Virus record (IMG/VR): IMGVR_UViG_3300044731_000819
Span: 1 to 56,699 of that record
Source of the DNA: a virus
Reading direction: 5' to 3' (one strand)
Length of the DNA: 56,699 nucleotides
Shown here in pieces: positions 41,180-54,142 of the stretch. The notes beneath the pieces were generated by a model, which saw only the letters and a program-made list of their open reading frames with translations, did not search any database and had not been told where the DNA came from. A program made the position numbers and the translations under genes. How positions within the stretch are numbered: the stretch's first letter is position 1; each line of letters begins with the position of its first letter.

Positions 41180-44100
41180 TTAATTGAACTTGTGTTTTCC
41201 GTTAAAGGATTGTTTATCTTCGTTACTATTCCCTGTTAAATATATATTCCTTAGTTTAGTTTGTAAATCCTCACTTGGACTTGCAATCACACTATAATCA
41301 AACTTTCTTTCCAAAGTTTTATCACCTTCTATTTTTGTATATTGTTGTTCGTATTTTGTTTTCCAATCGGTAATTAAAGTATCTACGTTTTTAATGTATG
41401 GTAAAGCATATTCATAATATCTTGTTATGATATACTCAGTTAATGTTCCTTTAATAGCTTCAGGACTACTTGTGTTTTTAACTGCGGCATCTAAAAATTC
41501 TTTTTTCTTAGCATCGTCTCTAAACACAGGGTCCATCAACGTTAAAAATTTAGCGTCTGAATTTGTAAACGGGTCAGGAAACCCTAAAGTTCCGTTTATA
41601 TCAAAACTGTCCGAAGGTAATAATCCAACGTCTTTTAATGACGCATAAAATCCGTTTAAAACATTAACTAATTCTTGGTAATCATTAACTAATTGTTCGT
41701 ATGTATTTGCCGCAACCATAAATGGATTTAACAACGCCTGTGTAGTTATTGGTGTACCAGAAATATCCAAAATTTCAACAGATTGGTCAGATTTAATTTG
41801 ACCGTCGTGTTTTTCATTAACAAAATCCGCCTTTTCCATATTAACAACTAAAGCCTCCTGACTTTCACATACCCCTTGTATAATTTTAGTTATATCTGTT
41901 GTAAAATTATTTTTATAATTTTCCAAATATGTAATAATATTTTGATAAATTTTTAACCTGTCTGACCTTGAAATTCCTGTTGGTCCATTTTTAAATGCGA
42001 TTTGCCAAGATAAATCTTCTTGTTTTGTTTCTTTTATTGAGGAGTTAAACCATTCATCTAATACAATTTGTATTTGGTCAGGTTTTCCAAAAATTTCAAC
42101 ATTAACTGAGTTTTCACCTATTTTCGCAGTTCCTTTAGAATATAATCTATCTTTACCAAAAATCTGTAAAATTGTCCCATTATATGGGGTTTTGAAATCA
42201 GTAAGTCTACCGATAATTGTACTAATATAATTTTGACAAGTTGCGGATAAATTATTCATAAATTCTTTATAATTTATCGTACCTCCTGTTGATTCAGGTA
42301 AAGCCTCCCTTGTTTCTTGAACACCTATGAACGTTCCCCCATTATTTTGAACAGCATTTTGAATAATTGTAGAACCAGAAGTTTCACCTCTATCATCCAA
42401 TATCTTTTTAACCAAATCTTCATCCAATTTCTTAAATGAATCATCTGTCCATTCAGCCCTTTCATCAAATATTTCAGTATTTGCATAGTAATTAAATGAT
42501 AAAGCGTTTTGTAGAGTATCAATTGGTTCCTTTAATCCTGAACCACCAACAAAGTTGAATCCCATTTGGATTTTAGCAATCATTGGTTGGAACCCAATTC
42601 CTTCAGGATTAAAATCATATACTGGCTCATACGTAATATTAATTGAAGTCGGGATAATTCTTGTATTATAAAAATCACCAATTCTTAAAATTAATACAGG
42701 AGGAGCTCCAAATGCCGTATTAGTCGCGGCGTTATATTTTGGCTTCCCATCAGTTCCAATTGTCGGAATTGTATCACCAGGTCTTGAACATTGATTTAAG
42801 AATGTTAATCTTGAATTTAATCCTTCAGGAGTCATCGAGTGAAAAGCCGGAGTGAAGTACTTCAATTTTTGTTTAATTGAATCGTATATCATTGGGTTTT
42901 CACCTTGTATTGCGGTAAAATAATCACACTCTGACAACAAATCTCTTAAAACCTTTTTAGAAATACCGTCTTTAATTTTTTGTGTTGTAGTAATAGTTGG
43001 GGGAGTTATAATAGGATTGAATGGATTAGGAATCCTACGGCTTCCATCATATGGTACAATATCCGGTCCAGTCCCTGGAGTACCTTCACCCGGTGTCTCG
43101 CTTGGGTCTCCTCCACCAGGTTCTCCGTCTATTTCAATATTGGTAATGGCCGCTCTTCGACACCACATTGCAGGTCTTGAATAGATTTTATTGTAATTGA
43201 TACTAGTCGGTACATCCTCATCCGTACAATTAACACTTGAACTTGTTGACCCATTCTCCAAAGCTTTAACATTAACCGCTGTCTCACCTTGTGGTTCTTG
43301 TTTTATAACAATTTTTTTAGTTTCACCATTAATCCATTTATTTAAATCAGGATTTTTAGCAAGATATTGCAAAACAGAATTTATTCTTCTTTTAGATAAC
43401 CAATCATTATATGTCTTGGTTTGAGGGGCAGACGCACTACCTGCCATTGTGATTGTTATCTTATTTATTTTTGGATTTTTAGTTATTAACTCTACAATTT
43501 CTTTTTGGAAATCTTTTTCAATTTTAGCATTATACTCAATTACATTAGTAAATGTATTGGCAATTTCTTCTTTATTTGTAGCACTACCTCCATTAGCTTG
43601 GTATTGTGATTTCATACCAATATAAGCAGTGTATGTGACATCCCAAGTTTGACTTGGATTTGGATTTCCGATTTGTTTTGGTCCAGGTATATCGTTATGA
43701 AAATACCAACCTAAATTAATCCATTTATTTTTAAATTCAGGAAATCCTCCACTAGTATTAGTATTACCAGGAGTACTTGTCCCATTCCCCGCATTAGTAC
43801 CATTTGTACCTTCATTTCCGACAATTACTTTTGACGGGTCGTCTGATGTGGTAATTCCCGCCTCCCCAGCAACTTGAGCTAATTGGTCTGCATTGATTGC
43901 GGGATTTGTAATTATTTGTTGATACGTAAATAAATCTCTTGTTGGTATTGTCGTAAATCTTCTTGCCAATTCATATAAATCATACTTTAAACATCCAGCA
44001 AAGAATGAATCAACAATTGAGTTAACTCTTTCAACATTTGACTCATTTTGTAGAATTTTGTTAGTAATTGTGTTCAAAACTGATGGATGGTCAACAACCA

Positions 44101-46222
44101 TTTTCCAACTTAATGAACCTCCTCTTGATGTATTTCTATACGTGTAAATTGGTTCAGGTCTTCCTAAAATTTCAGTAGCGTCAAATCTTGGTGAAATAGT
44201 TTCACTGAAACTTAAATCATATGGTGGGAACCACATAACTCTACCTCCATTTGGACCTCTTTCACATACAGGTAAATCATCATATGTAAATCCAGGTCTG
44301 TTTGATGTTCTCCAAGCCAAATTCTCAATTGAGAACATATATTTTTTAACTTTATTATCAATAATATTTGTAGAACCCGGATTTCTTAAAGGCGCGATAT
44401 TCAAATTATATGTGTTGTCAATAATTGAATATGTAAATTTTCTTCCTGATGTTGTAATACCATCAGTCTTTTGTAAATCATTATATGTGTAGTATGGAGT
44501 GTCTTTAGCAAATACTCTACAATACTCAACCCCACCTCCGTGTTGGTTGGTCGCAGCGTCATAAGTGTAACTAACAACTCTTGAACCTTTTGTTAATTCT
44601 CTGTAACCATCGTGAAATACTTTAGATAATTGGTTGATTGCGTTACCAACGTGACCCAATCTTTCAGCACCTGCAGGTGTTGAATCCAACAATCTCTGGG
44701 TATTATCTAATATACTTCCATTTTTAAAATTAATATTTGTTGAGTTAAAACTTCCATCAAACTGACCGCTAATCTGATTAAATTCGGGGTCTTGATTTGC
44801 AGAAAAATCTCCTCCAACTTTGGCACCAAAACCAGGATTATTATAACCTTGTGATGTCCAAACAAACCCACCCGCAATACCTCCCGCATTAATTGTTGCA
44901 GTTCCATTTAAACCAAATTTAAAGTTTTGGTTTTCCCCCTCATATAACTTACCCATCGCGTCGGGTCCGATAACAGGTGATTTTACTTGTTGTCCTACTG
45001 AATTTGTCGGTAATTGTCCAGGTGGTGAAAATATATCAGAAGGTTCTGAATTATTTTGTCCAATATAAAAATCTGATACAGGTCCTTCTTCACCATCTGT
45101 TAATCTTTCAATAATTTCTAAAAGACCTCTACCAATGTTTCTTGCTAAACCTCTATTATATCTTGGTTTATATTTGTTATAATCAATGTTATTGAAAAGA
45201 GTTGACCTTTGCCCCTGTCCCGTGTTACTTAAAAATACTTGTGAATAGTTTGTACTTGTATCTAAACTTCCAAATATAGTTCTTGGGTCTCTACCACCCG
45301 CAAATGCTGAAACAATTTGATTCGCCGCAGTTGGTCTCCACTGAGCCATATCCTCATCAAAATAATCTCCAGGTATTGGCGATGCAGGGAAATATGTTCC
45401 CGATAATTTCAATAAGAAATTTGCCGCAAAATCTATTGGATTTTCGGGAACTGTAATTGAATAATTCTTTTCAATTAATGGAATTCTTCCACTTGCAACT
45501 TGAGCCAACGCAACAGGGTCACTTAACGCTTCAGATAAATTTTCTCTACCAAAAGTGTTTCTTTCTATCTCCCTATCAATCCTATATTGTAATGCGTCTT
45601 TAAGAAAAGTCGCACCCAATTGAGCTAACTGACTATCTTGAGTTATTGACCCGTCACTTCCCTGTGGATTACTATCAAATAAAATAGTATATGGAGTATA
45701 CGATGAAGGTAAAAAACTAACAGGTGTCGGATTTGCGTAAAATGAAAATGTTGGGACAAACTGTAAATTATTAATTTGTTCTAAAAATACCTCATCAAAT
45801 GAATATTTGTTTAATGCGGGTATATTTTGTTCCGCAGTTACTTGAGCGTAATTTGGCCATCCTTGTCCCACCAAACTTTGTTCAGGTAAGGAAGCGTCCA
45901 TCACATTATATTCACCAGCATTAGAGTTTTGAACTAATGGTAATGATTGTGTAATTGTTACACCATATCCACCTTCAGGACCATATTCATTAAGAACATA
46001 TAATCCATGATATTGTGGGGGAACTAAGTTTGATGGTGGGTCAGCAATTAAACTATCAGGTGAATCAATAACTGAAAAATTACTCTGAACATATTCAAAG
46101 TTTTGTTGAGCAACTGGTGGTGTATATGAACCTGCAACAGTATAAGGTTGTAGATTTCTAACAACTAAACCATTCCTAAATGTTTCAGTATTGAAAAACG
46201 ATAATGGGCTATCTATTGGCAT
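41180..46222 (-). CDS. Giant baseplate/hub protein with OmpA/MotB-like domain
   Basis: 1680 residues. The N-terminal ~650 residues are Pro/Asn/Gly-rich, with a repeating NP-x-F style and no recognised domain. About residues 655-745 have a beta module (VMWFPPYDLSFSE, then LGRPEPIYTYRNTSRGGSL, VVDHPSVL). At about 865-975 a typical OmpA/MotB peptidoglycan-binding fold is visible: helix YNAKIEKDFQKEIVELI, strand KINKITITMAGSA, helix DWLSKRRINSVLQYL, then a final strand IVIKQEP. A Pro/Gly linker (about 1030-1070) follows, and the last 600 residues resemble a further structural module. It begins the operon with gp53 and the 2174-residue protein, directly after the tape measure. A hub or central spike-surrounding role is inferred. 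Confidence 0.65.
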   Translation of the reverse strand: MPIDSPLSFFNTETFRNGLVVRNLQPYTVAGSYTPPVAQQNFEYVQSNFSVIDSPDSLIADPPSNLVPPQYHGLYVLNEYGPEGGYGVTITQSLPLVQNSNAGEYNVMDASLPEQSLVGQGWPNYAQVTAEQNIPALNKYSFDEVFLEQINNLQFVPTFSFYANPTPVSFLPSSYTPYTILFDSNPQGSDGSITQDSQLAQLGATFLKDALQYRIDREIERNTFGRENLSEALSDPVALAQVASGRIPLIEKNYSITVPENPIDFAANFLLKLSGTYFPASPIPGDYFDEDMAQWRPTAANQIVSAFAGGRDPRTIFGSLDTSTNYSQVFLSNTGQGQRSTLFNNIDYNKYKPRYNRGLARNIGRGLLEIIERLTDGEEGPVSDFYIGQNNSEPSDIFSPPGQLPTNSVGQQVKSPVIGPDAMGKLYEGENQNFKFGLNGTATINAGGIAGGFVWTSQGYNNPGFGAKVGGDFSANQDPEFNQISGQFDGSFNSTNINFKNGSILDNTQRLLDSTPAGAERLGHVGNAINQLSKVFHDGYRELTKGSRVVSYTYDAATNQHGGGVEYCRVFAKDTPYYTYNDLQKTDGITTSGRKFTYSIIDNTYNLNIAPLRNPGSTNIIDNKVKKYMFSIENLAWRTSNRPGFTYDDLPVCERGPNGGRVMWFPPYDLSFSETISPRFDATEILGRPEPIYTYRNTSRGGSLSWKMVVDHPSVLNTITNKILQNESNVERVNSIVDSFFAGCLKYDLYELARRFTTIPTRDLFTYQQIITNPAINADQLAQVAGEAGITTSDDPSKVIVGNEGTNGTNAGNGTSTPGNTNTSGGFPEFKNKWINLGWYFHNDIPGPKQIGNPNPSQTWDVTYTAYIGMKSQYQANGGSATNKEEIANTFTNVIEYNAKIEKDFQKEIVELITKNPKINKITITMAGSASAPQTKTYNDWLSKRRINSVLQYLAKNPDLNKWINGETKKIVIKQEPQGETAVNVKALENGSTSSSVNCTDEDVPTSINYNKIYSRPAMWCRRAAITNIEIDGEPGGGDPSETPGEGTPGTGPDIVPYDGSRRIPNPFNPIITPPTITTTQKIKDGISKKVLRDLLSECDYFTAIQGENPMIYDSIKQKLKYFTPAFHSMTPEGLNSRLTFLNQCSRPGDTIPTIGTDGKPKYNAATNTAFGAPPVLILRIGDFYNTRIIPTSINITYEPVYDFNPEGIGFQPMIAKIQMGFNFVGGSGLKEPIDTLQNALSFNYYANTEIFDERAEWTDDSFKKLDEDLVKKILDDRGETSGSTIIQNAVQNNGGTFIGVQETREALPESTGGTINYKEFMNNLSATCQNYISTIIGRLTDFKTPYNGTILQIFGKDRLYSKGTAKIGENSVNVEIFGKPDQIQIVLDEWFNSSIKETKQEDLSWQIAFKNGPTGISRSDRLKIYQNIITYLENYKNNFTTDITKIIQGVCESQEALVVNMEKADFVNEKHDGQIKSDQSVEILDISGTPITTQALLNPFMVAANTYEQLVNDYQELVNVLNGFYASLKDVGLLPSDSFDINGTLGFPDPFTNSDAKFLTLMDPVFRDDAKKKEFLDAAVKNTSSPEAIKGTLTEYIITRYYEYALPYIKNVDTLITDWKTKYEQQYTKIEGDKTLERKFDYSVIASPSEDLQTKLRNIYLTGNSNEDKQSFNGKHKFN

Positions 46223-46258: not shown

Positions 46259-48211
46259 TTATCCTTCAGTTTTAGTTAAAAACTTTTCAAGTGTCGGTAC
46301 AAAATCGGCTAAAAATCCTTGTGATAACATATAGTCTTTAAACCAACCCTCAACACCTGAAAACTTATGTTCAATTTCAACTTTACCAGCAGCAGTAACT
46401 GTACTATTTATCGGTGTTGTTATATTTTCAGGATTTGTTGGTATATTTGGTGAAGCTAAAACTTTATCGTCTTTATCTGTAAAATAACTTCCTTTTGGTC
46501 CTGAAATTAATAATCCTCCTTGGGAATCTATTAAACCATCCTGTAATTGAATTCCTGAAATAGTATTTTCTAAAAATTTAATTACAGACAAGACATTTTC
46601 TTTTGACAACTGAAGGTTATTTTCTAATGATGGATTTTGAGTAAATGCTTCTTTTTGTTTACCGGCATAAATGTCACCAAATTTTGACATTTGTTCAGAC
46701 CTTTCTTTCAGTTCCCCTTTAATCAATGAACCAAAATCGGCACTAGCCTCATCAATAGTTTTTTCTTTCTTTTTTACTTTATCAATTAAATCAGTTAAAG
46801 CGTCATTCAATAAATCAAATTCACCTCTTAATTTTTTAGTTCCCCCTTTACCAAATATCGCTTCATCAGCAGCTAAAGTCGCGGGTAAAATTGTCCCTTC
46901 GGCAAACTTTGATATTTGCCCCCCTATTTTAGATGATGCAGCTGCGAAGGCAGGTCTTCCAGCAATAAGATTTGCAACATTTGCAATATTTGTTAATGAC
47001 TTATTTGCCTGCCATAAAAGTTGTTCGGAAGTTTTTTGTCCAGCCTTTTGGGCTTCTTTCATCATATCTAAATCTGCGGGTTCTAAAGAATCAATCGCCT
47101 TTGTCACATTATCACCTAACTTTTCATCATAGACTTCAATTTCATATTTACCTGTCTTATCGTTAAATTGAGACATATTAGCTATCAATTTTCTTGTATC
47201 CTCATTTGCAAATTCGGACGCATCGGGAAATTTAATTTGACTTAATTTTCTATCTAAATCTAATGCGTTCATACCCATTTTTGCAAATTCTTCAGCTCCA
47301 ATTCCTAAAGTTTTCGCAACTTCTCTAATTTGTCTTTGAGCCCCAGGCATTACTTTAAATCTTTTTTGTTTTTCATCAAATTCAACAAATTGTTTTGATA
47401 ATTCAATAAGATTTGATTGGAGAGCTTCTGGGTCATTTTCAGCCATATTCATCAAAGAAATTGGGTCTAATAACCCTGTAATTTGTACCCCCATTCTTTG
47501 TAATCCGGCAGCCATTTCAACCGCTTGTTGTGGGTCAAATAGTTTCTCCGCAATTGCTAAGGTATCTTTAATATTTGCCTTAACCATAATGGCTTCGGTT
47601 GCCATTTTAGACATTCCCTGAACTCCATTATCAAAATTATACATATTAAGTTTAGCAGTATTAGATGAAATTTCTTTCATCACTTCGCCAGCAACAACTC
47701 CAGTTCCTAATGAAGTATCTAAAACTTTTTTAATGTTCTCAACAACCCCTTGAGACGTAAATCCTAAATTTTTAAAAGTTTCATAATTTTTAACTCCAGC
47801 CTCCGCAGCGGATTGACCCATCGCTCGGGTTAATTCCCCCGTAACTAATAATTCTTTAGATTGTTCCGCCCTTAATAAAGTACTAGTTTTTTCAAATCCT
47901 GTTATTTTTTCAGATAAATTTGCAACATCAGTAAGAGTGAATCCAAATTTTTCAGATTGTATTTTCGCATCAATTATGTTCTGTTTAGCTCTTTCTCCAT
48001 AGACATCCAAACCACCCATAATTTTATTGTAATTACTAGCAATACCTTCCAGTTGGCTAGCAATATTAGTAAAACTAGTGAGCATACTCCCATTAACAAT
48101 ATTATATGTAGTATATAAATTTTCTAATGCCGTTGTGGCATCACTTAATGGGTCTTTTAAGTTAAATTGTTTTTCTTGTTGTTCCCTTTTTTCTTCTTTT
48201 TGAAATAACAT
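46259..48211 (-). CDS. Tape measure protein
   Basis: 650 residues, predominantly helical with long Ala/Lys/Glu/Gln-rich segments, as in tape measure proteins that fill the tube and set its length. Recognisable helical stretches are TALENLYTTYNIVNGSMLTSF, GLDVYGERAKQNIIDAKIQ, and a central MAAGLQRMGVQITGLLDPISLMN. The C-terminal part holds a glycine-rich loop (QGGLLISGPKGSYFTD) and a final helix with GFLADFVPTLEKFLTKTE. At about 0.15 nm per residue it would measure roughly 97 nm of tail. It follows the gp26-like/chaperone-type genes, as is usual for tail assembly operons, and precedes the hub genes. No lytic domain seen. Confidence 0.8.
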   Translation of the reverse strand: MLFQKEEKREQQEKQFNLKDPLSDATTALENLYTTYNIVNGSMLTSFTNIASQLEGIASNYNKIMGGLDVYGERAKQNIIDAKIQSEKFGFTLTDVANLSEKITGFEKTSTLLRAEQSKELLVTGELTRAMGQSAAEAGVKNYETFKNLGFTSQGVVENIKKVLDTSLGTGVVAGEVMKEISSNTAKLNMYNFDNGVQGMSKMATEAIMVKANIKDTLAIAEKLFDPQQAVEMAAGLQRMGVQITGLLDPISLMNMAENDPEALQSNLIELSKQFVEFDEKQKRFKVMPGAQRQIREVAKTLGIGAEEFAKMGMNALDLDRKLSQIKFPDASEFANEDTRKLIANMSQFNDKTGKYEIEVYDEKLGDNVTKAIDSLEPADLDMMKEAQKAGQKTSEQLLWQANKSLTNIANVANLIAGRPAFAAASSKIGGQISKFAEGTILPATLAADEAIFGKGGTKKLRGEFDLLNDALTDLIDKVKKKEKTIDEASADFGSLIKGELKERSEQMSKFGDIYAGKQKEAFTQNPSLENNLQLSKENVLSVIKFLENTISGIQLQDGLIDSQGGLLISGPKGSYFTDKDDKVLASPNIPTNPENITTPINSTVTAAGKVEIEHKFSGVEGWFKDYMLSQGFLADFVPTLEKFLTKTEG

Positions 48212-48246: not shown

Positions 48247-48429
48247 TTATTTGGTAGTAGTTTCTTCAATTAATTTGTCCAATAAAAATTTACGAGTGCT
48301 GATTGGCATCAAAAGAAAATCAGAATAGGAAACATTTAAATATTTAGCTAAATAATAAAACTCAAGTTCTCTTCCTTGTCTATACTCAGAAGAAAGGACG
48401 AAAAAACTCCACCCCAAAGAGAATATCGG
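48247..48429 (-). CDS. +1-frame extension of the gp26-like protein (tail-assembly chaperone T-type)
   Basis: Open frame overlapping the end of the gp26-like gene, without any usable start: the first ATG (48309) would leave only 20 residues. From the putative shift site it reads VLSSEYRQGRELEFYYLAKY, then LNVSYSDFLLMPISTRKFLL, and ends EETTTK. It has the look of real protein (amphipathic helices, conserved-type LNVSYSDFLLMP core) and fills the otherwise empty gap ahead of the tape measure. Expression is best explained by a +1 shift at TTTTTTC (48400-48406), giving a 295-residue fusion of 245 residues of the gp26-like protein and 50 from this frame. This layout, a short protein plus frameshifted longer form just upstream of the tape measure, is the hallmark of tail assembly chaperones (lambda G/GT, P2 E/E'). 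T4 genes 26 and 51 are also adjacent. Confidence 0.7.
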   Translation of the reverse strand, partial: PIFSLGWSFFVLSSEYRQGRELEFYYLAKYLNVSYSDFLLMPISTRKFLLDKLIEETTTK

Positions 48430-49135
48430 CTACGACCTCTTTTCCTGACGGGGCTATAATTGTCTGGGTTAATTCCAATCTTGGCTCATTTTCAAACATA
48501 AATTGTCTAATATGTTTTGAATCCATAATTGGCATAGTTTCAATATGCTTAGACATTTGTTCTCTATCTCTAATACCATCAATTTCAACTATCATTTTAG
48601 ATAATCTAATGGTTTGTCTTGGCGCAACCCTACCTGCGGGAAATGATTCAACAATTCTATCAATTTCATTATTGTCACCCAATGTTAAAGGTTTTAATTT
48701 AACAATAGAGCCACTTTTAGGTAATTTTGTTTCAAATAAACCTTCTTCATTTGGTTCGTGTAAAGTGTCTTTGTTATAAAGTTCAGTTAAAAATATTGAT
48801 GTTGAAAACTCTTTTCCTGTTTCAGGGTCAGTAGCCTTAACATTATACTCAGGACCAAATGATGTATTTCTTAAAAATATCATAATTGCCTCAACATCAC
48901 CATTTAATAAATCTTCAGGTCGTATATCTGGTTCATATATTTTACTTCTTAATAAAGAAATCATTAAATTTTCTCTGTTATTTTGAGCTAATAAAATATT
49001 TTCATCGGAAGCGGTTAAATAACCAACTTTGACACTCTTCTTTTTATTTGCATAGAATTTACCCTTTGACGGTAGTGGTACAACGTCATGAGGTAAGTTA
49101 AAGTTCATTTGCCCATATTGACTAACTTGGTCCAT
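48386..49135 (-). CDS. gp26-like baseplate/tail assembly protein (short form)
   Basis: 249 residues of the type annotated as T4 gp26/base-plate assembly protein. The N-terminus carries FNLPHDVVPLPSKGKFYANKKK and VKVGYLTASDENILLAQNN, followed by a conserved-looking helical body (LLRSKIYEPDIRPEDLLNGDVEAIMIFLRNTSFG). A second region has KPLTLGDNNEIDRIVESFPAG. The last residues GVEFFRPFF then stop, while the +1 frame continues as the extension described separately. It lies two genes before the hub and directly before the tape measure, as expected for a chaperone that coats the tape measure before tube growth. It starts 23 bases after the zinc-finger microprotein. Confidence 0.75.
   Translation of the reverse strand: MDQVSQYGQMNFNLPHDVVPLPSKGKFYANKKKSVKVGYLTASDENILLAQNNRENLMISLLRSKIYEPDIRPEDLLNGDVEAIMIFLRNTSFGPEYNVKATDPETGKEFSTSIFLTELYNKDTLHEPNEEGLFETKLPKSGSIVKLKPLTLGDNNEIDRIVESFPAGRVAPRQTIRLSKMIVEIDGIRDREQMSKHIETMPIMDSKHIRQFMFENEPRLELTQTIIAPSGKEVVADILFGVEFFRPFF
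48400..48406 (-). other. Putative +1 frameshift site TTTTTTC
   Basis: On the minus strand the end of the gp26-like gene reads GAG TTT TTT CGT. A peptidyl Phe-tRNA on the second TTT can re-pair with TTC one base downstream, its cognate codon, and continue GTC CTT TCT TCT GAG into the extension. Frame 0 ends at TGA five codons later. Confidence 0.55.
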
Positions 49136-49158: not shown

Positions 49159-49293
49159 TTATTTAGAAGATAAATCAATCTTATTTTCTTTTTTGTTGTG
49201 TCTATTTTCAAATTCTTCTTGGGTTTCAAACACTTTACCACAAGTTGGACACACAAAATCTGTATTACCTGAAAAAAAAAGTTCCATACACAT
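49159..49293 (-). CDS. Zinc-finger-like microprotein
   Basis: 44 residues from the ATG at 49291-49293, or 42 residues from the in-frame ATG at 49285-49287. The middle is DFVCPTCGKVFETQEEFENRH, the CxxC-x12-H half of a C2H2 finger, but the usual second His is absent (HNKKENK follows), so zinc binding may be incomplete or use another ligand. The rest is charged, ending KIDLSSK. A TATTTAT heptamer lies 21 bases upstream of the ATG, and the gp26-like gene follows after 23 bases, so it heads the tail assembly operon. It could be a small DNA- or protein-binding regulator. Confidence 0.6.
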   Translation of the reverse strand: MCMELFFSGNTDFVCPTCGKVFETQEEFENRHNKKENKIDLSSK

Positions 49294-49332: not shown

Positions 49333-49821
49333 TTAGTATACTAAGATACAACGGTCAGGTCTTAAAGTCGCTGAGATAGTTGCAATAGCATCTTGAGAAT
49401 AACTCAAACTATCAAAATTAACATTTGTTAAGAATGTTCCTTGTAGAATCCATTTCTCAACAACAACACCTGTTGGGTCTAACAATTCCAAATCAATGTC
49501 TTTCTTATAACCCGCAGCGTATCCCATACGTCCTGTTACAGACTCTGCGTGTAAACGAACCCATTCCATCAATGCTTGAGCCGCTGAAGGTCCAATTGGG
49601 TCACGGAACTTAACATTAATTTCATTCCAAGTGAATCTACCAGCTACATAAGTTGACGTATTCAAAAATTGAATTTCAGTCGAGTTTATTTTAATATTAG
49701 GTCTGGACGTAGATTCAACGAACCATTCATTAATTCCTAATGATGAAGGAAATCTTAATATAAATCGGTTCTGTCTTTTGGGTTCGTACGGAACCGGCAT
49801 TTTCATCAGTAAATCTGCCAT
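49333..49821 (-). CDS. gp19: Tail tube protein gp19-like
   Basis: 162 residues, nearly the same length as T4 gp19 (163). The sequence MPVPYEPKRQNRFILRFPSSLGINEWFVESTSRP is the typical start of T4-like tube proteins. Then YVAGRFTWNEINVKFRDPIGPSAAQALMEWVRLHAESVTGRMGYAAGYKKDIDLELLDPTGVVVEKW gives the characteristic G/D-x-A-A-Q-x-L/I and D-P-x-G-x-V-x-E-x-W pattern. It would polymerise into the inner tube through which DNA passes. It has a TATTTAT heptamer upstream and lies after the HAD gene of the sheath operon. Confidence 0.92.
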   Translation of the reverse strand: MADLLMKMPVPYEPKRQNRFILRFPSSLGINEWFVESTSRPNIKINSTEIQFLNTSTYVAGRFTWNEINVKFRDPIGPSAAQALMEWVRLHAESVTGRMGYAAGYKKDIDLELLDPTGVVVEKWILQGTFLTNVNFDSLSYSQDAIATISATLRPDRCILVY

Positions 49822-49935: not shown

Positions 49936-50799
49936 TTAATTAATTCTTTTTTTATCTCCTGATTGAGTAGAATAAACTTTAACTCCTGGTTCATCACCAA
50001 ATTCTTTATTAAACATTTCTACGTTCTTAGGGTCATCATCAGAAACACCTAGTTGAAATTCAGGTATAAAGGAATTAGATATATCATTTTTAATTAATGC
50101 TTTTGTACTTAATTCTATTGCTAAATCTCTGCAATATTCTAAAAAATTCCTAAATGCAATTTTCTTTAATTCCTCAGGATTGGCAGCGGAACCTTCTCCG
50201 TAAGTTACGGGGTGGAATTTACACAATCCTAAATACTCCCAAATTAATTCAATATCCTCTCTATCTTGTAAATCAAAAAGTTGTCTATATCTTTTTAAAT
50301 TACTAATACATTGGTTCATATTGATACCGTCTCTACCTGAAAGGATTAGTTCATAACAAGCTTCTTTAAGTGTGTCAGGGTTATGTCCTCTAGCAGTAAT
50401 TATTGAAAATATTGAACCTCCATTTATACATTCCACAAAATCATTCCAAGCCGGACCTGTTGGAGCCATTAATGAATCTATTAAAAATTTTTCATCACCT
50501 TCAGTTCCAAAATCACGAAACATATTTTTAGCAAAATCAACAATAGTATGTCCTTTATATGAGAAAGGTTCTTTACCTACCCTACTTCTATAACGTGCAA
50601 AATCCTTTGTAGACATTCCAATTTCTTCACCATCTTCATCTAAAACATAGATTACCGTTGGCATATACATTAGATTATCATCCCAGTCGAATGCGTAGTA
50701 TTTTAAAGAAGGAACCCCTTCCTCCGATACTGTTTCTAGTAGTCGGAGGATAAGGGTGTCCAATTGTGTTTCACTTAAATTCATATTAGATATTGTCAA
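49936..50799 (-). CDS. HAD-superfamily phosphatase-like protein
   Basis: 287 residues. HAD landmarks are in order: motif I YYAFDWDDNLMYMPT with D38 and D40, motif II SIFSIITARGHNPDTL, then a conserved Lys-bearing region, and motif IV-like LGVSDDDPKNVEMF. The protein should be a cytoplasmic phosphohydrolase; substrate unknown. It lies between sheath and tube genes, which is unusual for an enzyme, and is co-transcribed with the sheath: the long start (50799) overlaps the sheath end by 14 bases, while ATG 50784 (TAATATG) would follow the stop directly. A role in nucleotide or modified-DNA metabolism is as likely as one in tail assembly. The C-terminus is basic (QSGDKKRIN). Confidence 0.7.
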   Translation of the reverse strand: MTISNMNLSETQLDTLILRLLETVSEEGVPSLKYYAFDWDDNLMYMPTVIYVLDEDGEEIGMSTKDFARYRSRVGKEPFSYKGHTIVDFAKNMFRDFGTEGDEKFLIDSLMAPTGPAWNDFVECINGGSIFSIITARGHNPDTLKEACYELILSGRDGINMNQCISNLKRYRQLFDLQDREDIELIWEYLGLCKFHPVTYGEGSAANPEELKKIAFRNFLEYCRDLAIELSTKALIKNDISNSFIPEFQLGVSDDDPKNVEMFNKEFGDEPGVKVYSTQSGDKKRIN

Positions 50800-53700
50800 A
50801 TGATGCTCCTGTTGGAGTTATTAAGAATTCAATATCAATGAACTCTAAAGATTTAGTTGGTTTAACATAGATTTTACCTACTAATTGGTTTCTGTCTAAA
50901 TCTTCAGCTGAAGATGAAACAGTCACACGGAAATCATATAAACCTCTGTCTCTTCTGATTGAGTCCAAGATAGGGTTAACTGCGTCTAAGAAATCTTGTC
51001 TTACTTTAGCGTCGTTTTGTTCAAACAACAATCTAACTGCTACCGCTGAAATCAACTTACGAGCTTGTAATAACAATCTTCTAACGTTCAATCTGTCAAG
51101 AGCCGATTCTCTAACTTGTAAGGTCTTGTTACCCCAAATTACAGTTCCTACGTCTGAGAAAGTTGCGATTGGGTTAATTCTTCCTTTGTATAGAGTATCT
51201 CTATCTTCTTGTGTTAACTTCTTACGTGCTTTAACTGCGTTTACAATACCACGTGTGTAACCCGCTGATGCGAACCAAGGGAACGCGATGTTATCAGTCA
51301 ACGCTAAGTTTCTACAAACTTCCGCAGTTGGTGGGATATAAATTTGTGTGTTGTTAACAGTATCACGAGTTAACACCCAAGGATAGTAAGTCGCAGTGTA
51401 GTTAGAGTCAATACCTGTTTGTTCTAATGAATCAACTACGTCTTGTGGGTAGATTAAATCTTCAGCAGTGAATGTCTGAACAAATAAGTTAATATCAGGA
51501 GTAGTACACAAGTAAATTGAGTCTGCTCTGTCAAATTCAACCATTTCAATTGCTGATTCAACCAAGTTAGAGTTATTTAACCAGTCAATACCAGGTGTTG
51601 CAAATACGTTAATGTTATTAGCTTCAGGATTTGCAAATGTTCTGATACCTAACAAGTATGCGTAGTAGTCAGTATTTGCCCAATCTTGAGTATTATCACC
51701 TACTGTGATTAACTTAAACATTCCCGCACCTGATGCGTTTGGATATCTTGCAGATGCGCAAGCTCCGTATAAGAAACCTCTTTGTCCGACTTGGAATAAG
51801 TCACCATTAGTTCTTGTTTCACGATAAATGTCCCATCCGTCAAATCCTCCTTGTACTAACAATGAGAACTTACGAGAGAATAATCTGTAGTATGGACTAG
51901 CAGGATTTGTTGGTTCAGAATTGAACGATGCCGCTCCAACTTCAAACGCTGACTCACCTGATGTAGTATACCCCGAAGGAATTTGAACAACAGTTGCACC
52001 ACTATCCATATGGAAACCTTTAGAAAGGAATGACCATTCATCACCTGTTGTGTCTTCACAAGGGTCGAGTGGTCCTTGTTTTCCTTTGTATTGGAAGTAG
52101 TCCCCATCATAACCGATTGTGTCTGAAATACCTAAATAAGTTCTTCTAACATTATCACCTGAACTTGTTCTTGGGAAATCTGTTCCGTCCGCAAGTCCAA
52201 ATGGTGGGTTGAAAGTTACTTCACCTGGGAAATCGTATTTTGTCTTATAAATTGGGAATCCTGTTTTAGCACCTGCGTATTGTCTTGATTTGTAACCTTC
52301 AAATCCACAAGGTAATGCGTCAACCGGAGCATCCACATTATAATCAACCATAATGTATTTAGAGTTTAATACAAATTCTCCATCAGACGAACCAATCTTT
52401 TTTGCGATATAGTTATTTAATGATGGGTCCATTGAACAGTTTGTAAATTTCTCTAAAACTACAGGTGATTCATCACTATCGTAATAATTTCTAACTACAA
52501 CATCAAATGTACCATTTGAGAATGAAATATTCAAAATCGACAATTTAACTTGGAAGTTCGCAGAATTACCGTCCGCAATTGATACAAATCTAAATAATCG
52601 ATAAACATTATTACCACGTAATTCAGAAACAACCCAAGGTGATGTTGGGCTTTGATATCTTTCCAAATACCAAGCTATTGATGTACCTGCGTTATAATCT
52701 TGTCTGTATCCAGGTAATGAGATTAATTCTGAACTTAATCCACGAATATAACCTTTATTCCAAGCCCAAGATAATAATGTTCCGTAACTTTCTTCTATAA
52801 ACAAAGGAACTGTAGTACGAGGTTTAGTAAAGTTACCATATCCCAAAACTTTAGTAATTGATGTAGCATCAGTTTCAGATAAACTAACTTTGAAATTAAA
52901 GTTTGTATTATCAATTGTAGTACCTGTGATTGCAAATGGAGCAAATGGATTTTGTTCTACAGCAGAATAACTACCACTAAAATCTAATCCTACTGAAGTT
53001 AAACCTGTAACTTGATAAGCCGGTCCATTAGAATTTGCAGTGTAAAAAGTATTTCCTCTTGAACGCATTGTTGCAACAACTAATTCGTGATATTCAGAAT
53101 AAGTTAAACCTGACATATTGAATGCGTAACCGTGAATAGTTCCTGAATAACACACATTTGGTGTTGTTGGAGTTGAAGTCACTGTTGGTGTCGGTGTTGG
53201 TGTTACGTCACAAGGATTGTAAGTTGAAGTTACTGTAACCGTTGGACTTGGAGTTGTAGTTGTTGTAACTGGAAGTAATTCCAAGTTTTCAATTACAACT
53301 ACAAAAGAATACCCTGAGTAATTTTCCGCAGTTGTTGGGTCAAATAATCCATAGTACCAAGCGTCATTATATGGTGAAGTGAAACTACATTCGTAAGACG
53401 AACTACCACTTGTACCCATAACATTTGTTACATTAGTAAATCCTGCACCTGTGTACGTGTTATAAACATCACCAGGAATGATACCCCAAATAGCAATAGA
53501 ATCACCACTCATTGTAGTATCAGTAAGAATTGATTGAACAAACGCTTTAAGGTCGGACTCTAAATTAGAAGTACCACCATTAAACTGTGTATAATTATCA
53601 TTTAATTTCGCCTCAATTTCATCAGGGAACATTCCTTGAAATGACAATTGTGAGATGAAGTTACTACATCCTGTAAATGCTACAGATATTTCACTTGTTC

Positions 53701-54142
53701 CTGTAATAATACAGTTAGTTTCACATATTGCTGGGTCAACTGCAAAGTTAGGTGTAGTTGAACAACTATAAGTGTAACCAACAGTTGATGAATCAACGTT
53801 AGCGACTGTTTTAATAGACCAAGAAGGTCCCGCATCATAACCAGATAATCCTAATACTCTCGTTACGAATAATTGATTTGATTGTTGTAAATACGCCTTG
53901 GCGATATACGACATTTCATATTTCGGAATTTGTGTGTTCACAAATTTTTCAGGAGTTGTCCCTCCGAAATAAGTTTGGAATTCATCATAGTTAGTGATGA
54001 ATATAGGTTCAAAAGCCGGACCTTTGGTAGCTTCTCCAACTAAACCCAAAGTTGTAACACCCACGCTAGATGTTACAAAGCTCAAGTCCCTTTCTGATGT
54101 ATAAACACCAGGCGAAACGAATACTTTGTTTGCTGTTGCCAT
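50786..54142 (-). CDS. gp18: Tail sheath protein gp18-like with large Pro/Thr-linked insertion
   Basis: 1118 residues, compared with 659 in T4. The N-terminal FVSPGVYTSERDLSFVTSSVGVTTLGLVGEATKGPAFEP is the classic start of sheath proteins. The C-terminal ~380 residues (ANPEANNINVFATPGIDW, later LLLQARKLISAVAVRLLFEQND, ending EFIDIEFLITPTG) form the conserved contraction core. Between about residues 100 and 480 lies extra sequence containing a TVTVTSTYNPCDVTPTPTPTVTSTPTTP linker and beta-rich modules on both sides. In known sheaths such insertions point outward, so the surface of this sheath may be decorated. It is the first gene of a transcript starting at a TATTTAT heptamer. Confidence 0.92.
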   Translation of the reverse strand: MATANKVFVSPGVYTSERDLSFVTSSVGVTTLGLVGEATKGPAFEPIFITNYDEFQTYFGGTTPEKFVNTQIPKYEMSYIAKAYLQQSNQLFVTRVLGLSGYDAGPSWSIKTVANVDSSTVGYTYSCSTTPNFAVDPAICETNCIITGTSEISVAFTGCSNFISQLSFQGMFPDEIEAKLNDNYTQFNGGTSNLESDLKAFVQSILTDTTMSGDSIAIWGIIPGDVYNTYTGAGFTNVTNVMGTSGSSSYECSFTSPYNDAWYYGLFDPTTAENYSGYSFVVVIENLELLPVTTTTTPSPTVTVTSTYNPCDVTPTPTPTVTSTPTTPNVCYSGTIHGYAFNMSGLTYSEYHELVVATMRSRGNTFYTANSNGPAYQVTGLTSVGLDFSGSYSAVEQNPFAPFAITGTTIDNTNFNFKVSLSETDATSITKVLGYGNFTKPRTTVPLFIEESYGTLLSWAWNKGYIRGLSSELISLPGYRQDYNAGTSIAWYLERYQSPTSPWVVSELRGNNVYRLFRFVSIADGNSANFQVKLSILNISFSNGTFDVVVRNYYDSDESPVVLEKFTNCSMDPSLNNYIAKKIGSSDGEFVLNSKYIMVDYNVDAPVDALPCGFEGYKSRQYAGAKTGFPIYKTKYDFPGEVTFNPPFGLADGTDFPRTSSGDNVRRTYLGISDTIGYDGDYFQYKGKQGPLDPCEDTTGDEWSFLSKGFHMDSGATVVQIPSGYTTSGESAFEVGAASFNSEPTNPASPYYRLFSRKFSLLVQGGFDGWDIYRETRTNGDLFQVGQRGFLYGACASARYPNASGAGMFKLITVGDNTQDWANTDYYAYLLGIRTFANPEANNINVFATPGIDWLNNSNLVESAIEMVEFDRADSIYLCTTPDINLFVQTFTAEDLIYPQDVVDSLEQTGIDSNYTATYYPWVLTRDTVNNTQIYIPPTAEVCRNLALTDNIAFPWFASAGYTRGIVNAVKARKKLTQEDRDTLYKGRINPIATFSDVGTVIWGNKTLQVRESALDRLNVRRLLLQARKLISAVAVRLLFEQNDAKVRQDFLDAVNPILDSIRRDRGLYDFRVTVSSSAEDLDRNQLVGKIYVKPTKSLEFIDIEFLITPTGASFDNI

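Follow-up and report, generated by a model that had tools for sequence, protein, structure and literature searches.

The window analysed here is the whole stretch of 56,699 nt of the IMG/VR virus record IMGVR_UViG_3300044731_000819. The minus strand of the window carries, in this order, the genes of the tail sheath and of the tail tube, a gp26-like ORF (ORF1) and a gene of 650 aa. The features of this locus are the following:

50786 to 54142, minus strand: tail sheath protein (PF17482, E 5.7e-8; PF04984, E 5.9e-7)
49333 to 49821, minus strand: tail tube protein, encoded 5' of the chaperone (E 6e-30 to phrog_4542, tail tube)
48386 to 49135, minus strand: ORF1, T4 gp26-like/PF12322 protein of 249 aa by its profile matches, proposed as the short tail assembly chaperone (TAC-N)
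48411 to 48454, minus strand: 5' RNA stem-loop, with covariation in 29 sequences
48400 to 48406, minus strand: putative slip site TTT TTT C, conserved in 51/51 family sequences with the junction (30 distinct)
48247 to 48399, minus strand: ORF2, in the +1 frame, encoding domain 2 (VLSSEYRQGRELEFYYLAKYLNVSYSDFLLMPISTRKFLLDKLIEETTTK, 50 aa), the C-terminal part of the proposed long form (TAC-NC)
46259 to 48211, minus strand: gene directly 3' of the chaperone, tape measure candidate by position only (synteny)

Profile and phage searches with the gene at 46259 to 48211 gave no family or phage match; a tape measure protein is annotated at the equivalent place in Flavobacterium phage immuto and Listeria phage LIS04. 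With 1118 aa the sheath protein is very large; a Thr/Pro-rich insert (TTTTTPSPTVTVTS...) lies near residue 300, and the likeness of the protein to typical sheaths is found mainly in the C-terminal part, the nearest one being that of Mel-JY01. Between the tube gene and ORF1, a small ORF (49159-49293, minus strand) encodes a zinc-finger-like CPTCGKVFETQEEFENRHN stretch. The 1680-aa gene at 41180-46222 (minus strand) showed a weak OmpA-like domain (PF00691, E 7e-4, below the cut-off) at residues ~900-978. The window was also searched for tRNA genes and Rfam families, and none was found.

ORF1 starts with ATG at 49135 and stops with TGA at 48388-48386, and its 3' end reads GAG TTT TTT CGT CCT TTC TTC TGA. 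Over residues 31-233 it matched the PF12322 family (T4_baseplate) with an E value of 1.2e-10 (41.9 bits, cut-off 24.5), and it also matched the gp26-like phrog_150 (E 6e-12). This was the single PF12322 match across the record, which may be incomplete. Duplicated TAC genes of the 26/51 type were considered for the window and rejected, as there is one locus with two frames. The structures of ORF1 and of domain 2 were predicted apart. For the ORF1 model (pLDDT 87), the best structural match given by VIA-align was the HK97 tail assembly chaperone (2ob9; Z 5.4 over 94/104 residues, the next match reaching 3.9). This match is modest and such a Z may be a coincidence, yet it fell on the expected protein. 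A Foldseek search of the PDB with the same model gave no significant match, and no sequence relative was found in the PDB. In addition, 18 ORF1 proteins taken together contained no conserved stretch for a scan, the scan with the SP-15 ORF1 matched SP-15 alone, and bacterial genomes scanned with ORF1 gave no match. An earlier note on this DNA had proposed a tail-chaperone role for the locus, which its sequence supports and to which the predicted fold of ORF1 adds the modest HK97 match.

Upstream of the junction, the +1 frame has its last stop at 48432-48430, and from there it is open until the TAA at 48249-48247; the third frame contains many stops. With a shift of +1 at the second TTT, reading continues as FF-VLSSEYRQGRELEFYYLAKYLNVSYSDFLLMPISTRKFLLDKLIEETTTK and ends at 48247. 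Scanning IMG/VR with ORF1 yielded 53 relatives, 50 of which were long enough for the junction check. Along the 114 nt beyond the first stop, in 30 distinct relatives, the +1 frame was interrupted by stops in 0/30 and each of the other frames in 30/30. Of the codon differences past the first stop, 57% were synonymous in the +1 frame, the other two frames reaching 4% and 5%. Substitutions at the first, second and third +1-frame codon positions numbered 988, 489 and 2136, respectively; these counts are pairwise and the pairs are not independent, so that they are descriptive and carry no p-value. Since the +1 frame is stop-free in 30 distinct relatives and evolves as a protein does, its openness is not due to chance. 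Its product was modelled as three predicted helices forming a confident unit (pLDDT 88).

Weak TTG and ATG codons are present in the +1 frame of the window, and we judged them unused because of what the relatives show. In 14 of these (L028-L037, L043, L046, L047 and L054) the slip codon is directly preceded by a +1-frame stop, and no ATG, GTG or TTG follows in this frame until 19-31 codons further on, inside the conserved domain. As these relatives are closed before the slip and remain without a start for 19-31 codons, separate initiation of domain 2 was ruled out. The idea that domain 2 is made as a separate small protein from its own TTG or ATG is favoured by phages in which a small ORF is annotated separately at the junction (Mel-JY01, SP-15 and immuto) and by three relatives with separate, ATG-started domain 2 ORFs (L072, L078 and L097). 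However, it gives the slip codons no reason to be conserved, and precisely these are lost in two of the three: in L072 (TTC TTG TAT) and L078 (TTC CTT TGG), of the sister family, the UUU codon has disappeared, coinciding with the acquisition by domain 2 of its own ATG. For the window, we consider an own start extremely unlikely. Thus, a second, overlapping frame is under protein-level selection, and it lacks a usable start of its own, as the earlier note had stated.

TTTTTTC occupies 48406-48400 exactly, and the region contains no second site of this kind. The UUU in the P site (48403-48401) would re-pair with UUC (48402-48400), and the A-site codon before the shift is CGT (48400-48398). Both frames and the motif GA[G/C/A]-UUU-UUU-CGN-CCU-UUC-UU are kept, in the same frame, in 51/51 family sequences with the junction (30 distinct). 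The coordinates given in the earlier note (gp26-like frame ending at 48386, +1 frame reaching 48247, TTTTTTC at 48400-48406) were exact, and its crossing from UUU to UUC at this heptamer agrees with the conservation found. The alignment of homologues that it had proposed showed both frames and TTTTTTC to be conserved in the 30 distinct sequences. In-frame fusions, which would speak against a frameshift, were sought among the homologues of the window family and none was found. This bears also on whether a sequencing or assembly error has split an in-frame gene; there is a homopolymer at the break, but the same split recurs in 30 distinct sequences coming from many metagenomes, plus several GenBank isolates, and the chance of such an error is practically nil.

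All four CGN codons occur at the slip site, and UUU_CGN followed by a +1 continuation was present in 30/30 distinct sequences. A Phe-CGN pair elsewhere upstream in ORF1 was present in 0/30. CGN accounts for 93 of the 541 Arg codons of the window, and CGC and CGG appear once each in ~17,800 codons. Likewise, the flanks of 11 distinct loci with CGC at the slip site contain 11 CGC in 17,696 codons, and those of five loci with CGG contain 7 CGG in 9,175 codons. Being so scarce in the flanks, CGC and CGG are nearly private to the slip site. The presence of CGN in the A site fits a slowly read codon, as has been proposed at UUU_CGN for influenza A PA-X (PMC3498833) and amalgaviruses (PMC5052127). 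The base preceding UUU-UUU was T in 0/56 distinct sites, T making up 39% of third positions and GAT 69% of Asp codons. A T there would create the -1 heptamer U_UUU_UUY, which is thus avoided.

The six-T run admits two other explanations of how the second frame is reached. In the first one, a -2 shift as in phage Mu would lead to the same frame, since TTTTTT permits the P-site tRNA to re-pair two bases back, giving a product with one extra Phe. However, the second frame is kept in relatives where this re-pairing is impossible (L058, UUC-UUU-CGU; L061 and L094, UUC-UUU-CCC; L055, AAC-UUU-CUA; L063-L077, UUC-UUU-UGG), and UUC-UUU-C sites exclude a -2 shift in those distant relatives. Moreover, the rare CGN codons in the A site fit a +1 shift instead. 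A -2 shift in the window is consequently very unlikely, and the +1 direction stated in the earlier note holds by sequence. In the second explanation, the RNA polymerase would slip on the T run, adding or removing a base. The six consecutive T at the site are a short run for transcriptional slippage, many relatives (L055, L085 and the UUU_CUU family) have only UUU-C, and the UUC-UUU sites offer no long T run on which to slip, which makes this improbable in the extreme.

Upstream of the slip site there is an RNA stem that stops 7 nt short of the P-site codon. It is formed by an outer helix (RCCCCG/UGGGGU), in which 48454-48449 pairs with 48416-48411, and by an inner helix of 9 pairs whose register is variable. 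Over the 66 nt that end at the slip codon, 29 sequences (23 distinct) were aligned without gaps; in this alignment, paired cells amounted to 86.4% versus at most 52.5% in slid controls, the covariation score was 0.364 versus at most 0.123, and there were 28 double-change cells versus at most 9. Two outer pairs are swapped compensatorily in L010 and L014 (C-G to G-C and C-G to U-A), and the stem is kept with further compatible changes in L153-L156 and L114, outside the alignment. The window's own stem is weakly stable (z -0.94), and the close group of the window has a different inner register. The mean folding z of the window family was -1.80 upstream and -0.43 downstream of the site, whereas in nine relatives with a -1 second frame it was -0.03 upstream and -2.69 downstream. 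The UUU_CUU family, with an upstream z of +0.5, is without a 5' stem, indicating that this stem is not required in general. Strong hairpins were also observed in the 63 nt directly upstream of the +1 site of PhiXhv-16 (L096, z -4.7) and phiXF1 (L094, z -3.3), and they are possibly an independent 5' element. Likewise, the 80 nt downstream of the -1 site of the jumbo-phage chaperones L060, L087 and L089 showed strong RNA structure (z -5.3, -4.4 and -7.0, respectively).

The conserved 5' element might also be explained without any stem, the frameshift being real and stimulated, as in prfB, by a Shine-Dalgarno-like sequence (GGGGUGGAG) that lies 3 nt upstream of the P-site codon. At column -4, Gly is encoded by GGG in 28/30 sequences, though GGG represents only ~5-13% of Gly codons. 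However, L010 and L014 carry GGACCG with the opposite arm, GUCC, changed to match it through the two compensatory pairs, and Asp (GAC) variants break GGAG in 11/30. We consider this stem-less alternative unlikely; the upstream GGGG could act in a Shine-Dalgarno-like manner besides the stem arm or instead of it.

The two-frame +1 arrangement was found in more than 100 related phage sequences besides the window. Among 94 further loci, a few of which are earlier contigs again, 91 had a +1 second frame, 3 were ambiguous (two of these being cut off) and none had only a -1 second frame. Distant relatives, among them the cultured SP-15, GXN1, immuto and Mel-JY01, had the +1 frame in other sequence surroundings, their sites being UUU_CAC (Bacillus phage SP-15), UUC-UUU_CGU (Streptococcus phage GXN1), UUC-UUU_CCC (QdP_Psa3 and phiXF1), UUU_CUU (Flavobacterium phage immuto), UUU_CUA (LR756508), UUU-UUU_UGG (Mel-JY01) and UUC-UUU_UGG (L063-L077). 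The site of LIS04 is UUU-UUU_AGU, where the slip may take place at the first UUU, and at UUU_CUU sites an alternative CUU_U slip as in prfB is possible. A very large immuto-related family (L162-L241), with at least 599 confirmed, has UUU_CUU or UUU-UUU_UGG as +1 sites. A -1 second frame at U_UUU_UUY was found in XacN1, RAS14, Phosso, PA5oct, Atu_ph07, PBECO4, GAP32, Vibrio 2.275 and RaK2, and in 9/9 of these a T precedes UUU-UUU. The description of +1 shifts as rare in the earlier note is right for tail chaperones generally, but not in this family, where +1 is the common state. That note had not foreseen the rare CGN codon in the A site, the 5' RNA stem, or the relatives with -1 shifts or separate genes.

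Comparison of profiles revealed that domain 2 is one homologous family, shared by the window and by distant relatives of the +1, -1 and separate-gene types. The E values were 1e-10 between the window family and the sister +1 family, 5e-10 between the sister family and the -1 group, 2e-5 between the window family and the -1 group, and 4e-7 between the window family and the SP-15 group. Domain 2 of the QdP_Psa3/phiXF1/RHph group is weakly related to that of the window (E 4e-4), for which reason this group was scored as +1 by frame and site rather than by homology. ORF2 is missing from the annotations of GXN1, LIS04, QdP_Psa3 and phiXF1. As existing tools cover few forward motifs (PMC10885494), +1 chaperone genes are annotated as two ORFs or missed.

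Homology to T4 was found in both parts of the locus. The earlier note had likened the second domain to the product of T4 gene 51, and domain 2 indeed matched the C-terminus of the gp51 family (six-member alignment) with an E value of 2e-4 versus 0.84 for the reversed control; against a single gp51 sequence there was no significant match. The gp51 family, in turn, matched T4 gp26 (E 2e-10). From these matches, the short form of the chaperone seems to be encoded in T4 by gene 26 and the long form by a second gene, 51. Vladimirov, Gautam and Davidson, in a 2022 work on the T4-like TAC (doi 10.1016/j.virol.2021.11.003), reportedly argue in its title for a non-frameshift mechanism. PMC10885494 summarises this work, and our reading of genes 26 and 51 fits the summary, which, as far as it goes, attributes to some T4-like phages one short gene and one longer fusion gene, without gene names.

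Both frames, the purifying selection, the conservation of site and codon, the covarying stem and the homology of domain 2 across expression modes were computed, and they point with high probability to a T4-type TAC pair made by +1 frameshifting at UUU_CGN. The occurrence and efficiency of the shift, the role of the stem and the function in assembly are what we infer from them, as follows. The short form would come from the majority of ribosomes, which finish ORF1 at its stop at 48386. Some others would pause while tRNA-Phe occupies the P-site UUU and the A site contains the rare CGN; the tRNA-Phe would then slip from UUU to UUC, and reading on through domain 2 would produce the long form. The RNA stem, re-forming behind the ribosome, probably aids the shift by exerting a pull on the mRNA. 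The assembly role of the pair is taken from lambda gpG/gpGT (PMC5009743); on this analogy, the tape measure protein would be bound by the N domain, and the tail tube protein would be brought in by the C domain.

Taken across the relatives, there is about an even chance that a single chaperone family has switched the direction of the ribosome during evolution by means of mirror-image signals, namely +1 at UUU_C (with a rare A-site codon and a 5' RNA stem in the window clade) and -1 at U_UUU_UUY with 3' structure, or has resorted to gene splitting or duplication. If this is true, the 5' stem would push forward as the counterpart of the usual 3' pseudoknot, and bacterial and eukaryotic ribosomes would have UUU_CGN in common as a slip motif. 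With its +1, -1, split and duplicated forms, this protein family provides a natural series in which to test what sets the direction of frameshifting.

Frameshifting of tail chaperones was described in a 2016 review as widespread with the exception of T4, and the same review named HSTV-2 as a very likely +1 case (PMC5009743); Listeria phages and SPP1 have been named as +1 cases in another gene (PMC3498833). The sequences compared here point to frameshifting in many phages whose chaperones are of the T4 type, the shift being forward in most of the set examined. In the literature searched, UUU_CGN appeared in eukaryotic contexts only, and a +1 tail chaperone of the window type was not found; Vladimirov 2022 may contain one. 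The data suggest that UUU_CGN, so far described for influenza and the amalgaviruses, is also functional with bacterial ribosomes.

Finally, the locus was compared with known systems. In the lambda gpG/gpGT type (Xu, Hendrix and Duda 2004; PMC5009743) the shift is -1 in lambda and most others and -2 in Mu, whereas the window has a predicted +1 shift at UUU_CGN, a 5' element and an N domain of the PF12322 type. T4 resembles the window in its gp26-like N domain and in the alignment of the gp51 C-terminus with domain 2, but has two separate genes and no frameshift where the window has a single locus with two frames. The Vandenendeviridae and Andersonviridae (PMC12846349) share with the window a myovirus TAC with a frameshift at a T-rich site, but theirs is -1 at GTTTTT and that predicted for the window +1. 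The closest likeness in the site itself is to influenza A PA-X and the amalgaviruses (PMC3498833, PMC5052127), in which UUU also re-pairs as UUC in the P site and CGN is preferred in the A site, all four CGN codons occurring. These are, however, eukaryotic RNA viruses, and stimulatory signals are not evident in PA-X (PMC5009743), whereas the window belongs to a bacterial virus with a covarying upstream stem.
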